Part shown: positions 9,271 through 50,564 of the stretch, one piece after another | Layout of the letters: each line of letters begins with the position of its first letter | How positions within the stretch are numbered: the first letter of the stretch is position 1 | Assembly (NCBI RefSeq): GCF_000022365.1 | Contig: NC_012804.1 | Span: forward strand, 930,001 to 994,000 | Direction: 5' to 3' | Length of the DNA stretch: 64,000 bases | Source of the DNA: Thermococcus gammatolerans EJ3 | GTDB taxonomy: Archaea > Methanobacteriota_B > Thermococci > Thermococcales > Thermococcaceae | Position numbers and translations under genes: made by a program | Notes under the pieces: model-generated | Databases searched by the model: none | Seen by the model: only the letters and a program-made list of their open reading frames with translations | Told to the model about the DNA's origin: nothing

Positions 9271-12200
9271 TCAGGGCTTCTCAAAGCCGACCCTGACCCT
9301 GTGGACTATTATCTCGGCCTTCTCAACGAGCTCGGGCGGTATTTCGAGGCCCTCCTCCAGCCTGAACTTGATCTGATCCGCGAGCCTCCGAACCTCATCC
9401 TTCAGCTCGCCCCCAACGTAGAACGCTAAATCGCTTGCGTACTTGTAGGCCTCTCCGGCGTTGTTGGTCTTCAGGTTGATGAGGAGTAGCTCCGTCAGGT
9501 AGTAGGCCGCCCTCCTCCTGTCTCCGAGGGTCTTGCTCTTCCTCAGGCCCTCTGAGTAAGTCATGTTGAGAACCCTCGCGAGGTCGCGCTGGAGCTCCTC
9601 AACCGACTGGTAGCGCTCCTCCTTCCTCTTCGCCAGCATCTTCATTATTATCGGCTCAACCTCCTTGGCCTCGGGGTTAATCTGGCCCGGCGGAACCGGA
9701 TCGTCCCTGAGAATGCCCATCATAACCTGACTGAGCGAGCCCTCGAAGGGGAGCCTTCCGGTGACGAGCTCGTAGAAGATGACGCCGAGCTGCCAGATGT
9801 CAGTCCTCTCGTCCGTGTGGCCGAACTTCTTGTCGATCTGCTCCGGGGCGGCGTAGAAGGGGGTAAAGCTCGTTGTCGTCGTCGCGCTCATGCTCTCCTC
9901 GAGAACCTTGCTCAGCCCCCAATCGCTGATCTTTGGTAAACCGTTCTTCAGGAGAACGTTGCTCGGCTTAAGGTCACGGTGAACGATCTTCTTGGAGTGT
10001 GCGTACTTCAGGCCTTCGGCGATGTTGAAGACGATCAGCGAAGCTTCATCCACCGGCAGGGGCTTCCGGAGTTTTGCGAGAGAACTTTCGCAGTACTCCA
10101 TCTCAAGGTACGGGACTGGCAGGACGTTAACGTCGTAGAGCTCGACGATGTTCGGGTGCTTTAAGTGGAGCCAGTTGGTTATCTCGCGCACGAAAGCCCT
10201 TCCAATGGCAGGATCGAGGGTCTTCGGGATCTTGAGGGCGATGACTCTGCCGTCCTTCCTCTTTGCTTTGTAAACCCTCGCGAAGCCGCCCTCTCCAATG
10301 TACTGGAAGTCGGAGTAGAGCTCCTGGAGAGCCTCGACCGGGTTGAGGATGGGCGTGCTCGTTAACGGCGTTGGGGTTCTCGCGGAAACCCTGGCGGTCC
10401 TGCTCACCCTCACCGGGAAGGTGTGGGAGAGCGAGCCCTTCTCCGACTCGACCTTCACCGTGAAGTCGAAGTCACCGAGGAACCTGGGCTTAACGGTCAC
10501 GCTCTCGCCTATCGTCTTGCCGGGCCTTATCCTCGGGAACTCCACCCTTTCCTCGCTCAGCTCGAAGTAGTCGGTGTTCTCGCTCAGGTCAACTGTTAAG
10601 CCCAGCGGATCAGAGAACTTGTTGGTTACTATTATCGAGACCTCGTTCTCGGCCTTGTGGAGCATCTCCTCGGGAACGGTGATCCTGACGCTCTCCCTGA
10701 GGAGTTCGAGCTTCCTCTTCTCTTCGAGCTTTGAGAGGCGCTCCCTTATGGCCTCTTCTCCCTCGCCTATTGCCTGCGCTATCTCAAGCGCCTCGGTGTA
10801 GAGTTTCTGGGCCCTCGTGAGGTCGTTCTCTTCGAGGGCCCCGTCCCCCTGCGAGACGAGGTTGTCCATGCGCGTCCGGAGGGAGTCGAGGAGCGACTCC
10901 ACCTCCTCCGCCCTTCCGAGGGCCGGGGCAAGGACCATCGCCTCGTTGATGACCGAGACAGCCTCGCCGTAGGATCTCCTCTCGATGAGCTCTTTCGCCT
11001 TGCTTATGAGTTCTGAAAGCTTTTCAAGGTTTCTGGCGATCTCTTTCTGGGCTTTCACCCTGTCAATTCTCTCCCTGACCTCTTTCTCCTTTCCGAGGAG
11101 TTCGGCTAGGGGCATGGCCTTCAGGTAGGTGGAGACGGCCCGGTCGTACTGTCCGCTTGAGGCCAGTGCGTCCCCCTCCTCAAGGAACTTGGAGATCACA
11201 GAGTTCACCGCGTTGTTGAGCTCCTCCCTGAGGGAGGGATGGGAGTTCGCTATCCGGAGGGCTTTCCTGTACTTTCCTTTTGCCTCCCCAACCCTGCCCT
11301 GGGCGGCTAGGCTCTCGATTTTGGCTGTTATCTCTTTGAGTTGGTTTTCGAGCTTGAGGATGAGGTTTTCTTCGATCCTGCGGGCGCGCTTCTCCATTCC
11401 CGCTCTGCTCAGTGCCTTTTTGAGCCGGTTAAGGTTTTCTAACGCCTCCTCCGGCCTTTCTCCAGCCATTGCGAGGAGGAGTCCCTCGGCCTCGTCGAGG
11501 GTACTTGTGAGGTTCGCCCTGATCTCTGCCTCTTTTTCGGGCGAGGTCTTTCCGGCCATCGGGAGGGCTTCCGCGAGGGCTATGGCCTTTTCAATTGGGT
11601 CGAGGGTTTCCGCCCCGGTGAGGAGTCTTTCGAGGTCGTTTTCCTTCGGCGCTGGTTTCTGGGGTTTTGGTTTTCCGCCTTTGGCTTTAGCGGCGATGCC
11701 TCCAACGAGGAGGAGGCCGATGACGGCGGCGATGTAGAGGGGGTTAATTCCACTGCTGGCTTTCTTGTAATATTGAGTCTTTACCTCCGCATTTGTGTCC
11801 TGGATCTGAGCGTTGGTGTCATGTATTTCTGCGTTGGTATCGTGGACTTCTGCGTTCGTTGATTCCACTTGAGCGTTTGTATTCTCAACCTGGGCGTTTG
11901 AATCATTGCAGAACTCACACCCCGGCAGGTTTCCATCTGACGGAAGCCTGAGAACCCAAAAGTCATCATCACCAGCGCCGAAGCTCTCAGTGTAGCCAGC
12001 CACTATAACGTCCCCGTTCTCCGCAACGGCAACCGCGTTAGCCTCCTCCCAATAACTCCCGCCGTAAGTCTTCTGCCATTTAACGTTCCCATTCTCGTCC
12101 AAACGAAGAACCCAAACGTCTCTACTACCAGCGCCGAAGCTTCTCGTGTAGCCTGCTACTATCACGTCCCCGTTATCAGCTATCGCAACCGCGGTAGCAT

Positions 12201-12590
12201 AATCCCGCTCACTCCCGCCGTAAGTCTTCTGCCACTTCACGTTACCGTTCTCGTCAAGCCTGAGAACCCAAGCGTCACTTTTCCCAGCGCCGAAGCTCCA
12301 AGTGTAGCCTGCAACTATAACGTCCCCATTCTCAGCTATCGCAACCGCATTACCGCCAACGTTTTTTGCCCAGATCACGTTTCCACTTGCATCAAGTCTC
12401 ATAGTGAAAGAACCTGTAACAATAACGTCCCCGTTCTCCGCAACGGCAACCGCGGAAGCCACATCATAATCTTTACCGCCATAACTCTTAACCCACCAGG
12501 GCCCGCCATCGTCCGCTTTAACGGCGGGAGAACCCACTCCAAGGAGGCCGTTAGGAGCAGGATGATAAGGAGCAGCGACCCCTTATTCAC
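9271..12590 (-). CDS. Receptor-like Ser/Thr protein kinase, apparent frameshift after the signal peptide
   Basis: The long frame covers 1088 residues from a GTG at 12537. The outer part (1-200) has four SBBP-like beta-propeller repeats of about 48 residues (GDVIVAGYT, WVLRLDENGNVKWQKTYGG). Residues 212-253 are six seven-residue repeats of the TNAEVHD kind, then a membrane helix at about 264-284. Inside follow helical/TPR-like repeats (300-610), a beta-sandwich (615-710) and a Hanks-type kinase (about 741-990) with GEGGFARV, K769, HRDLKPSN at 853-860, DWG instead of DFG at 872-874, and APE. The sequence just upstream encodes a clean signal peptide (MNKGSLLLIILLLTASL from GTG 12590, with GGTGGTG before it), but in another frame. 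Either a sequencing error or a real mutation lies near 12538-12548. Confidence 0.85.
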
Positions 12591-12697
12591 AGCACACCAC
12601 CCGGCCTACTACGGCACTTCATGATAAGAGGTTTTCGGCCCCTCCGTGATTCTCCCCTGTGCATCCTGCCGCAATAACCGAATCATAGTTATACCCC

Positions 12698-12714
12698 ACG
12701 GGTATTATACCCGT
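12698..12714. promoter_or_regulatory. Palindrome ACGGGTA-3-TACCCGT
   Basis: Perfect 7-bp arms with a 3-bp spacer, followed by a plus-strand TATA-like GGTATAAAA at 12717-12725. It lies in the divergent region between the kinase and the ATPase gene. Its sequence differs from the 35-bp array that follows, so another regulator may bind it, possibly one acting on the kinase. Confidence 0.5.
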
Positions 12715-12745
12715 CAGGTATAAAACGAAAACCCGCCGCTCTTTG

Positions 12746-12864
12746 TTGCCGGTCGAGAACCGGCAAGAGTTTATAAAGTCTTGTCGAATGACAATCGCTA
12801 CTTATTTATAAACCCTTGCCGAACGACGTTCCGCAAGGTATATAAATCACGGGGCGTACGTGAT
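12746..12864 (+). promoter_or_regulatory. Array of 35-bp-phased palindromes with a TATA box in each unit
   Basis: Three units start at 12746, 12781 and 12816, exactly 35 bp apart. Each begins with TTG-Y-CG and a palindrome: TTGCCGGT-5-ACCGGCAA, then TTGTC-GAAT-GACAA, then TTGCCGAAC-3-GTTCCGCAA (one mismatch pair). Each is followed at offset 23-24 by a TATA box (TTTATAAA, TTTATAAA, TATATAAA). A different palindrome, ATCACG-7-CGTGAT, sits at 12846-12864 between the last TATA box and the ATG at 12868. The last TATA box predicts a leaderless transcript at about 12867. The layout suggests cooperative repression by a protein binding one face of the DNA, probably autoregulation. Confidence 0.8.
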
Positions 12865-12867
12865 CCC

Positions 12868-14076
12868 ATGGTTGACCTTGAAGAGTACAACCCCTGGTGG
12901 GTGCACGAGGAAGACCCAGACGTCGAGGAGTGGAGGGACTTAGAGTACCGCTACGTCCCCTCGTGGATAAATGACCTCTCGCTCGAACCCTTCTCGGTGA
13001 ACTTCCTCGTCGGGCCGAGGAGGGTCGGCAAAACCCTTGGGGTGAAGCTCCTCATAAAAGAGCTCCTCCGTGAGAGGGAGAACCCATACGAAATCTTTTA
13101 CTTCGACTGCACGATGCTCGACGACCAGAACGACCTCTCCGCCGTTCTCAGGGAGTACCTGAAGCTCAGAGACGCCAAGGGGATAAAGGGCTCCCTCATA
13201 TTTCTCGACGAGGTTACCTCGGTCAGGAACTGGTGGAAGGCGATAATAGACCTGATAAACAGGAGAAAGCTCAGGAACGACGTCGTCACCGTTATGGGCT
13301 CCGTCTCCGTCAACCTCGACCGGGCGGTTGGCCGTTTCGCGGGGAGGAGGGGTAACGGGAGAGTCCTTGAGGTAATGCCCCTCGGCTTCAGGGACTACTA
13401 TAAGCTGGTTACAGGCGTTGAGGACTACTTCGACGGGAAAGGCCAGGACGCCTTCGAAAGCTACCTCCAGACCGGCGGCTACGCCGCTTACCTGAACAGG
13501 AGGATCAGAAAGGGGGACATAGTCGGCTCGCTAAAGGCCGACCTGAGGAGCCTGGAGAAGGAGAAAGACCCCGAGATAGCGAGGGAGATACTGGGGGCCA
13601 TCATATCCAAAGCGCCCAGCCCGCTCTCGTACCGCGAGATCGGTGAGGAAGCCGGAGTCAACAGGGACACCGTGAGGAGCTACGTTTCCGTTCTTTCGGA
13701 GCTCAAAGTACTCTTAGAAATTCCCTTCTCCCAGTGGGGAAAGGAAGTCGTCCCGAAGAAGAACAGGAAGTTTGCCATCAGGGACCCGCTGATGGCGAGG
13801 GCCTTCGCCGAGTGGAGCAGGGTTAGGATCGAGGACTCGGTGCTCTACGAGTGGGTCGTTCAGGAGCACCTCTACCGGAAGTTCAGGGAGGTTTATTACT
13901 TTAGAACTGGCGAATACGAGATCGACGCCGTTGTTCCTGGGATGAGGGTCGAGGTAAAGTCCGGGAAAAGGGGCGGCAGGTATCCAAAGGACGTCATCGT
14001 GCTCGGCGGGAGAGAGGTTCCCCGCTTCCTCTACGGCATAGACTACAGCCCCGTCATCGAGTACGAGAACGTTTGA
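12868..14076 (+). CDS. AAA ATPase with DUF4143-like C-terminus (archaeal ATPase family)
   Basis: 402 residues from ATG 12868, starting MVDLEEYNPWWVHEEDPD; the frame extends 29 codons upstream through the operator array but that part is non-coding by context. Walker A is GPRRVGKT (about 49-56), Walker B is SLIFLDEVT (about 109-117). A helix-turn-helix-like segment lies at about 252-275 (LSYREIGEEAGVNRDTVRSY). The C-terminus has YEIDAVV then RVEVKSGK, the D...ExK pattern of a PD-(D/E)XK nuclease-like fold. This is the AAA_14/DUF4143 class, abundant in Thermococcales and of unclear role. A paralogue lies at 49407. The gene stands alone, convergent with the GTPase gene. Confidence 0.88.
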   Translation: MVDLEEYNPWWVHEEDPDVEEWRDLEYRYVPSWINDLSLEPFSVNFLVGPRRVGKTLGVKLLIKELLRERENPYEIFYFDCTMLDDQNDLSAVLREYLKLRDAKGIKGSLIFLDEVTSVRNWWKAIIDLINRRKLRNDVVTVMGSVSVNLDRAVGRFAGRRGNGRVLEVMPLGFRDYYKLVTGVEDYFDGKGQDAFESYLQTGGYAAYLNRRIRKGDIVGSLKADLRSLEKEKDPEIAREILGAIISKAPSPLSYREIGEEAGVNRDTVRSYVSVLSELKVLLEIPFSQWGKEVVPKKNRKFAIRDPLMARAFAEWSRVRIEDSVLYEWVVQEHLYRKFREVYYFRTGEYEIDAVVPGMRVEVKSGKRGGRYPKDVIVLGGREVPRFLYGIDYSPVIEYENV

Positions 14077-49291: not shown

Positions 49292-49320
49292 GGGTTCTGT
49301 TTCGATTTATGAGGGAATAG

Positions 49321-49407
49321 TTTGCACTTCCACTGCAAAGAGATTTAAAAATGATTTGCAATAAGAGTGCAAAATCTTTATAAATACCTTTGCACTATAA
49401 ATGCACA
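49321..49407 (+). promoter_or_regulatory. Array of 34-bp-phased palindromes with TATA boxes (second ATPase)
   Basis: Three palindromes start at 49321, 49355 and 49389, exactly 34 bp apart. The first two are TTTGCA-7-TGCAAA; the third is TTTGCA-7-TGCACA. The first two are followed by A/T-rich TATA elements (ATTTAAAAA and TTTATAAAT at 49377-49385). The last TATA box predicts transcription near 49406, at the ATG. The sequence differs from the 12746 array, but number, spacing, TATA position and the kind of gene downstream are the same. Confidence 0.8.
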
Positions 49408-50564
49408 TGCTTGAGGTACAGAACCCATGGTGGATTGGTGAACCCGACAGGGACTGGGAGCTCTTTGAAAAGCTCACCTACAGGGTCAGGCCGAAATGGC
49501 TTGATGAGCTCTCGTTGAGGCCCTTCTCCCTCAACTTCGTCGTCGGCCCGAGAAGGGTCGGGAAGACCATGGGAATAAAGCTCCTCATTAGGGAACTCCT
49601 CAAAAAAGTCCACACTCCCTACGCCGTCTTTTACTTCAGCTGTGACGTGCTTGAGGACTACAAAGAGCTTTTAGAGGTTCTAAACGAGTACCTAAGGCTG
49701 AAGAGACGAAAAAGCGTTAAAACGGCCTTTATATTCCTCGACGAGGTCAGCCTCGTGGATGACTGGTGGCGTGCCTTGAAGTTCCTCATAGACAGAGGCG
49801 AGTTGAGGAGCGACGTCATCACGGTGACCGGCTCGATTTCCCTGACGGTAGGCAGGCATTTTGAGACCTTCGGCGGCAGAAGGGGGAACGGAAAAACAAT
49901 CGAGGTCATGCCGCTGAGCTTCTATGAACACTACAACCTTTTCTACGACGAGTTCTTCCCCTCAATGGGGGAAGAGGTCTTCGAGAACTACATTGAGACC
50001 GGAGGATACTTGGCATACATGAACGGCACCCTTAAGGTCGAGGAGCTCGTGGGCTTCCTGAAGGCCGACTTGAAAGCTTTAGACCGCTCGACCGACCTTG
50101 CGAGGGACGTTATGGGTGCGATACTTGATAAGGCTCCCTCACCTACATCCTTCAACGCGATAGCGAAGGTAGTTGGAATCTCCCCCCACACCGCGAGGGA
50201 TTATGTTGAGCTCTTCGAGGCCTTCCACGTCCTCCTGCAGGTTCTCTACCTTGGAGGCGACGGGAAGGTCTATCCGCGGAAGGAGAGGAAGCTAATCCTC
50301 CGCGACCCGCTCATCGTGAGGGCCATGGAGCTCTGGACGAGGAGGAGGATTGATAAAGCGGTTCTCTACGAGTGGCTCGTCCAGGAGCACCTGTACAGGA
50401 AGTTCGGGGAGGTTTACTATTACAGGAACTCCTACGAGGTTGATGCAATCGCTGGAAACCTGAAGGTCGAGGTGAAGTCGGGGGAGAGAAGGGGGAGGTA
50501 TCCGAGGGACGTTAGAATCCTGAAGGGCCCGGAGGTTCCGGGATTCCTTTACAACCTCACTTAG
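49407..50564 (+). CDS. AAA ATPase with DUF4143-like C-terminus, second copy
   Basis: 385 residues from ATG 49407 (MLEVQNPWWIGEPDRD); ATG 49401 adds two residues. Walker A VGPRRVGKT (about 39-47), Walker B AFIFLDEVS. A helix-turn-helix-like segment FNAIAKVVGISPHTARDYVE lies near 251-270. The C-terminus has YEVDAIA then KVEVKSGERRGRYP, the D...ExK arrangement. It aligns along its length with the ATPase at 12868, but under a different operator sequence. Leaderless by TATA spacing. Its end overlaps a small convergent gene by 8 bp. Biochemical role unknown. Confidence 0.87.
   Translation: MLEVQNPWWIGEPDRDWELFEKLTYRVRPKWLDELSLRPFSLNFVVGPRRVGKTMGIKLLIRELLKKVHTPYAVFYFSCDVLEDYKELLEVLNEYLRLKRRKSVKTAFIFLDEVSLVDDWWRALKFLIDRGELRSDVITVTGSISLTVGRHFETFGGRRGNGKTIEVMPLSFYEHYNLFYDEFFPSMGEEVFENYIETGGYLAYMNGTLKVEELVGFLKADLKALDRSTDLARDVMGAILDKAPSPTSFNAIAKVVGISPHTARDYVELFEAFHVLLQVLYLGGDGKVYPRKERKLILRDPLIVRAMELWTRRRIDKAVLYEWLVQEHLYRKFGEVYYYRNSYEVDAIAGNLKVEVKSGERRGRYPRDVRILKGPEVPGFLYNLT

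Follow-up and report, generated by a model that had tools for sequence, protein, structure and literature searches.

In a 64,000-nucleotide stretch of the complete 2,045,438-bp chromosome of Thermococcus gammatolerans EJ3 (family Thermococcaceae; this whole stretch is hereafter the window), three palindromes spaced at 35 bp (12746-12850) precede a gene for an AAA_14/DUF4143 ATPase. We consider it probable (roughly 0.8), on comparative sequence grounds, that the downstream AAA_14/DUF4143(-PD-(D/E)XK) ATPase has this array as its autoregulatory operator and probably binds it to control its own production. The array belongs to a widespread pattern in a very common and poorly understood family of archaeal and bacterial ATPases, a candidate for defense against viruses, in which each gene appears to bear private landing sites at its own promoter, ca. 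32 to 35 bases apart.

Direct reading placed the unit starts at 12746 (TTGCCG), 12781 (TTGTCG), and 12816 (TTGCCG), a period of exactly 35 bp, confirming the three phased palindromes with TTGYCG starts that an earlier sequence-only reading had described, with the qualification that the second is degenerate. Of the outer pairs, 8/8 match at site 1 and 7/8 at site 3, which makes both good 21-bp dyads. The dyad within site 2 (12781-12794) is perfect, but it spans just 14 bp and its center falls at 12787.5 rather than at 12791, the array register. We call site 2 degenerate in this genome because the orthologues hold an in-register 21-bp copy at this place (L003 to L010; for example, TTGTCGATTGCTATTCGGCAA in L006). 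TATA-like octamers at 12770, 12805, and 12839 correspond to unit offsets of 24, 24, and 23, as also noted earlier. Since the third is centered ca. 25 nt before the ATG, the transcript is presumably leaderless or near-leaderless, with its start site placed accordingly by prediction. Against first-order shuffles, the best 35-bp palindromic pair had a p value of 0.003, and sites 1 and 3 (70 bp apart) one of 0.0005. When the same kind of score was applied to 47 promoters of the window, a palindromic pair at 32 to 35 bp was significant at only two, those of the ATPase gene and of its paralogue at 49407.

The phase is conserved in relatives, where the sequence-only reading had sought the test of its proposal, since all 15 intervals upstream of nine orthologues from two genera measured 35 bp. 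Of 94 Thermococcaceae genomes, 57 had ATPase homologues; besides the promoter of the window paralogue, those of 83 genes were read, and the proteins were placed in a tree. Because strict single-palindrome scoring (≥7/8 outer pairs) missed many true sites, sites were called by clade matrices, with no spacing rule other than a separation of at least 15 bp. All 105 site-to-site intervals, upstream of ca. 80 family members, were of 33 to 35 bp (34 bp in 83, 35 bp in 21, and 33 bp in one), with 35 bp in clades A and A2 and 34 bp in most others, a fixed spacing compatible with protein-protein contact. Promoter base autocorrelation gave a 34-bp peak (z = 14.9), but the controls showed coding-like peaks, and for this reason we adopted a score that combines repeat and dyad, with positional controls. 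While the phase stays, the palindrome itself differs between clades A to F: TTGCCGAAYgnCRTTCGGCAA in clade A (that of the window array), TTTGCAGTnnnACTGCAAA in B, TTGAGAACTnnnAGTTCTCAA in C, TGTAAAGTnnnACTTTACA in D, TTGGTAATnnnATTACCAA in E, and TTGAGAATTnnnAATTCTCAA in F; clade G has a single site. In all clades with arrays the TATA box is centered 16.5 to 17.5 bp from a palindrome center, i.e., midway between sites; this holds for all but two of ca. 107 cases, the two outliers being at 14.5 bp. In clades B and F an operator also overlies the start codon, whereas clade A has none there. Gene and array occur in differing neighborhoods in different genomes, and the array therefore travels with the gene.

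Distant archaeal and bacterial relatives were scanned at projected start codons. Outside the Thermococci, 13 of the 16 significant promoters had a spacing of 32 to 35 bp, which was found in 22/73 loci overall versus 7/71, 6/72, 2/73, and 3/73 in four control placements. The same spacing was present in 23/39 paralogue promoters, against 1/39 controls, from three metagenome-assembled genomes (one each methanogen-related, Kerfeldbacteria, and KSB1), the palindrome differing from gene to gene and the phase being shared. The genomes of loci L121, L123, and L117 (G107, G106, and G105) held 13 to 28 family matches each, some of them two pieces of a gene, and their family members often had a palindrome each. 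In bacterial spacers, for example in L117 and L123, there is no TATA box, yet bacterial relatives keep the phase at 32 to 34 bp, and it is therefore probably the protein, not TBP, to which the phase belongs. Thus, the statement that each unit has its own TATA box holds for the window, but the TATA box does not set the phase. The members tested beyond the Thermococci carry AAA_14 and DUF4143 and match the defense candidate PDC-S01, with an E value of 3e-154 for one array-bearing bacterial relative (L169).

The operators are private. No second copy of the clade A operator was found in its own genome within three mismatches, and the clade B operators with zero or one mismatch in the window genome were all, among the matches listed, at the clade B gene, which argues for local autoregulation rather than a regulon. 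They also covary with the protein. Given similarity in the AAA domain, that of the recognition helix correlated with that of the operator (partial Mantel test, r = 0.24, p = 0.0018, 19 groups), and no significant tracking of the operator was detected in the same test for the rest of the winged helix-turn-helix (HTH) (p = 0.18) or the C terminus (p = 0.26). Where the operators of two clades clearly differ, the helix is usually the segment with the lowest conservation (identity of 0.20 between A and C, versus 0.43 for the AAA domain), while clades C and F, with TGAGAA operators in common, are more alike in the helix (identity of 0.73) than in the AAA domain (0.61). Helices and operators could be paired as follows: SPHT with TTTGCA in clade B and in the distant proteins of Bathyarchaeota L109 and Aenigmarchaeota L112, SHKTVF with TTGGTA in clade E and Culexmicrobium, HVT with TTGAMAGTT in clade G, L115, and L119, SYKVVQ with TTGAGAA in clades C and F, and NRDT with TTGCCGAA in clade A. 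The helices RQTVSNY (L236) and RQTISNY (L240) both go with GTTAA-containing operators, a possible further pair.

The sequence-only reading had pointed out an HTH-like segment in the ATPase. A winged HTH within the DUF4143 region is predicted with high confidence from the AlphaFold2 model (mean predicted local distance difference test score [pLDDT], 93.7), in which helices and strands fit this fold and the recognition helix (Table 1). In an alignment of 70 family members, the Walker A motif GPRRVGKT has a variable R52, and the Walker B residues DE114-115 are invariant. Toward the C terminus, E351 and D353 are invariant and E328, E362, and K364 are conserved in at least 90% of the sequences, which makes the segment a putative PD-(D/E)XK-like domain, in line with PMC12988326. 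A profile search of PDB sequences found no relatives of the ATPase, and the closest PDB folds, AAA+ proteins of the Orc1/Cdc6, RuvB, and RFC kind, were distant, with a TM-score of only ca. 0.3. The protein matches the PDC-S01 models of PADLOC, graded by E value (2.9e-27), over residues 44 to 356, which span the ATPase and C-terminal domains. PDC-S01, a defense candidate comprising an AAA ATPase plus PD-(D/E)XK, is reported as the fourth most common defense system or candidate in prokaryotes, with 9,986 counted in Archaea and 29,494 in Bacteria; most candidates of this kind still await validation (PMC12988326). The domain makeup of the window ATPase is the same, although the Thermococcales proteins are divergent members. 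In the limited literature collection searched, we found no description of a promoter, operator, or DNA target of PDC-S01, and no paper on DUF4143 with Thermococcus or on such operators.

As to how the array might work, we infer that the ATPase binds it directly and cooperatively, that it represses rather than activates, and that a signal lifts this control, which is most likely local autoregulation through cooperative repression. One 21-bp dyad would be read, via the DUF4143 winged HTH, by a dimer or by a pair of protomers within an oligomer, and with neighboring dyads ca. 33 to 35 bp apart the bound units would touch and load cooperatively. In archaea, where the TATA box lies between two operators, occupancy would exclude TBP/TFB and limit the expression of the ATPase itself; in clades B and F, the bound array would also cover the start site. 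Members within one genome would not cross-regulate, because palindrome and recognition helix are particular to each of them. Repression would be released when occupancy is lost through titration, the ATP state, or an invasion signal. A hint that bears on this signal is the Thermus thermophilus AAA_14/DUF4143 gene TT_P0211, which appears with a 6.6-fold value in a table of expression changes caused by plasmid DNA (PMC4406477). More tentatively, PDC-S01-like AAA_14/DUF4143 nucleases might be self-addressed modules, each copy with a private array of a protein-set period of ca. 33 bp and its own helix with a readable residue-to-base code; the array could then be both a promoter switch and an assembly or guard platform, where loss of occupancy during invasion might raise expression or activate the enzyme.

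Position, privacy, helix covariation, and phase together lend good comparative support to the cooperative array and autoregulation by the ATPase put forward by the sequence-only reading. Several observations weigh against it. In bacteria, many promoters have no significant array, so that arrays are not universal there, and those present are weaker. The Thermococcaceae loci are related, which inflates their counts and makes them not fully independent. In clade A, with no operator over the start codon, repression would depend on a site upstream of the TATA box. The correlation between helix and operator is modest, and of the predictions written beforehand for two genes of one further genome, only one was exact (L235, SHKT), the other being borne out in part (L234, where KT had been predicted and the helix has VHQT). 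One more G107 paralogue (L237, PVKT) also has KT and yet a different operator, so that a code of such simplicity does not hold.

Among the alternatives, a rather low probability goes to the array being primarily an assembly platform or self-recognition site of the ATPase-nuclease, controlling its activity or sequestering it through the same winged HTH, with effects on transcription being secondary. Conservation of the AAA motifs and of the PD-(D/E)XK-like residues would fit this role, and so would the match to a defense candidate and a phase that, being kept in bacteria where archaeal TATA boxes are lacking, reflects the protein, but the archaeal arrays lie at the family promoter, rigidly placed with respect to TATA box and start codon, as operators would be. 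It is unlikely that a separate host regulator, and not the ATPase, binds the palindromes. Although many unrelated archaeal regulators use palindromic operators around TATA boxes, here the palindrome varies along with the subfamily of the ATPase and with the recognition helix, differs between paralogues of one genome, and is part of a pattern absent from the other window promoters tested; such a regulator would need to be private to each paralogue. An iteron-like replication or partition element, also suggested by the sequence-only reading, is very improbable. The nearest solved folds are indeed winged-HTH AAA+ initiators of the archaeal Cdc6/Orc1 type, but at the low TM-scores given above, and the repeats are not linked to one origin per replicon, as this window alone has a pair of arrays on 37 kb of a single chromosome. 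Moreover, the arrays have just one to three units, are strictly placed at the members' own promoters, and occur several per chromosome, and in some species a genome holds many paralogues with arrays. That the array is due to chance, or arose as a by-product when TATA-box units were duplicated, has a negligible probability: a short AT-rich unit can recur randomly, and the p values for the window sequence itself are only 0.003 to 0.0005, but the phase is conserved over clades, genera, and phyla against shuffled and positional controls while the palindrome changes.

Autoregulation by the ATPase has parallels in known systems. The C-protein operators of restriction-modification systems are tandem palindromes at the promoter of a self-controlling defense module. 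The window array shares with them the tandem palindromes at the promoter of a module that is here a candidate for defense, but its regulator is apparently the ATPase itself and not a small dedicated controller. Archaeal Orc1/Cdc6 proteins on origin recognition boxes, the top structural matches, also combine an AAA+ domain fused to a winged HTH with repeated sites; unlike them (TM-score ca. 0.3), the window ATPase has an extra nuclease-like domain and sites at a promoter instead of an origin. Plasmid ParA of type Ia, an autorepressing Walker ATPase with an HTH, assembles cooperatively on palindromes at its own promoter (PMC8465637), and other repressors with tandem operators are comparable as well. 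The window ATPase differs in belonging to another family (AAA_14/DUF4143), in having no partner genes or centromere that could be seen, and in the rigid 32- to 35-bp phase and separate palindrome per paralogue of its family.

Table 1. Location of the arrays and of the associated ATPase genes and protein domains in the window
Feature	Position	Strand	Details
Operator 1	12746..12766	.	TTGCCGGTCGAGAACCGGCAA; 21-bp dyad; center -112 from ATG
TATA-like box 1	12770..12777	+	TTTATAAA; halfway between operators 1 and 2
Operator 2	12781..12801	.	Register copy, degenerate here; center -77 from ATG
TATA-like box 2	12805..12812	+	TTTATAAA
Operator 3	12816..12836	.	TTGCCGAACGACGTTCCGCAA; center -42 from ATG
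TATA box 3	12839..12846	+	TATATAAA; putative promoter; center ca. 25 nt 5' of ATG
AAA_14/DUF4143 ATPase, PDC-S01-like	12868..14076	+	402 aa; ATG at 12868; presumed autoregulator
AAA_14 ATPase domain	12997..13398	+	Residues 44-177
Winged HTH	13570..13779	+	Residues ca. 235-304; predicted (AlphaFold2 model)
Recognition helix	13663..13701	+	Residues 266-278, within NRDTVRSYVSVLSEL; predicted
C-terminal PD-(D/E)XK-like segment (putative)	13849..13959	+	E328, E351, D353, E362, K364 conserved
Second array, clade B	49320..49408	.	49320-49340, 49354-49374, 49388-49408; 34-bp phase; TTTGCA-type palindromes; 5' of paralogue
Paralogous AAA_14/DUF4143 ATPase	49407..50561	+	ca. 51% identical; own, different array

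Other elements were seen close to the array. A dyad in the leader (ATCAC-N9-GTGAT, 12846-12864) was dropped, not being kept in L005, L006, or L010. At 12691-12721, two tandem ATACC-N5-GGTAT dyads lie 16 bp apart; they were rejected as part of the array, being absent from L007 to L010. This element was found in 15 of 94 Thermococcaceae genomes, mostly as one copy per genome, and in six of the loci read it stood 4 to 21 bp upstream of where an ATPase (MKFYDREKEIELLRR...), seemingly of the PF01637 type, begins. Because that gene is missing here, the copy in the window looks like an orphan operator, and a second ATPase family, seemingly of the PF01637 type, may have private operators of its own. 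Directly upstream of the Ser/Thr kinase gene (9271-12537, minus strand), a signal-peptide-like start (VNKGSLLLIILLLTASLEW, 12537-12590) is in another frame, which suggests a frameshift near the 5' end of the kinase gene.

For the family, the arrays provide a concrete, testable DNA target for many PDC-S01 members, the specificity of which is predicted to be readable from ca. four residues of one helix. Private arrays would also give a reason why genomes can hold many paralogues without cross-talk. As a sequence signature, they can serve to find members and to choose reporter assays that could reveal the trigger signal.
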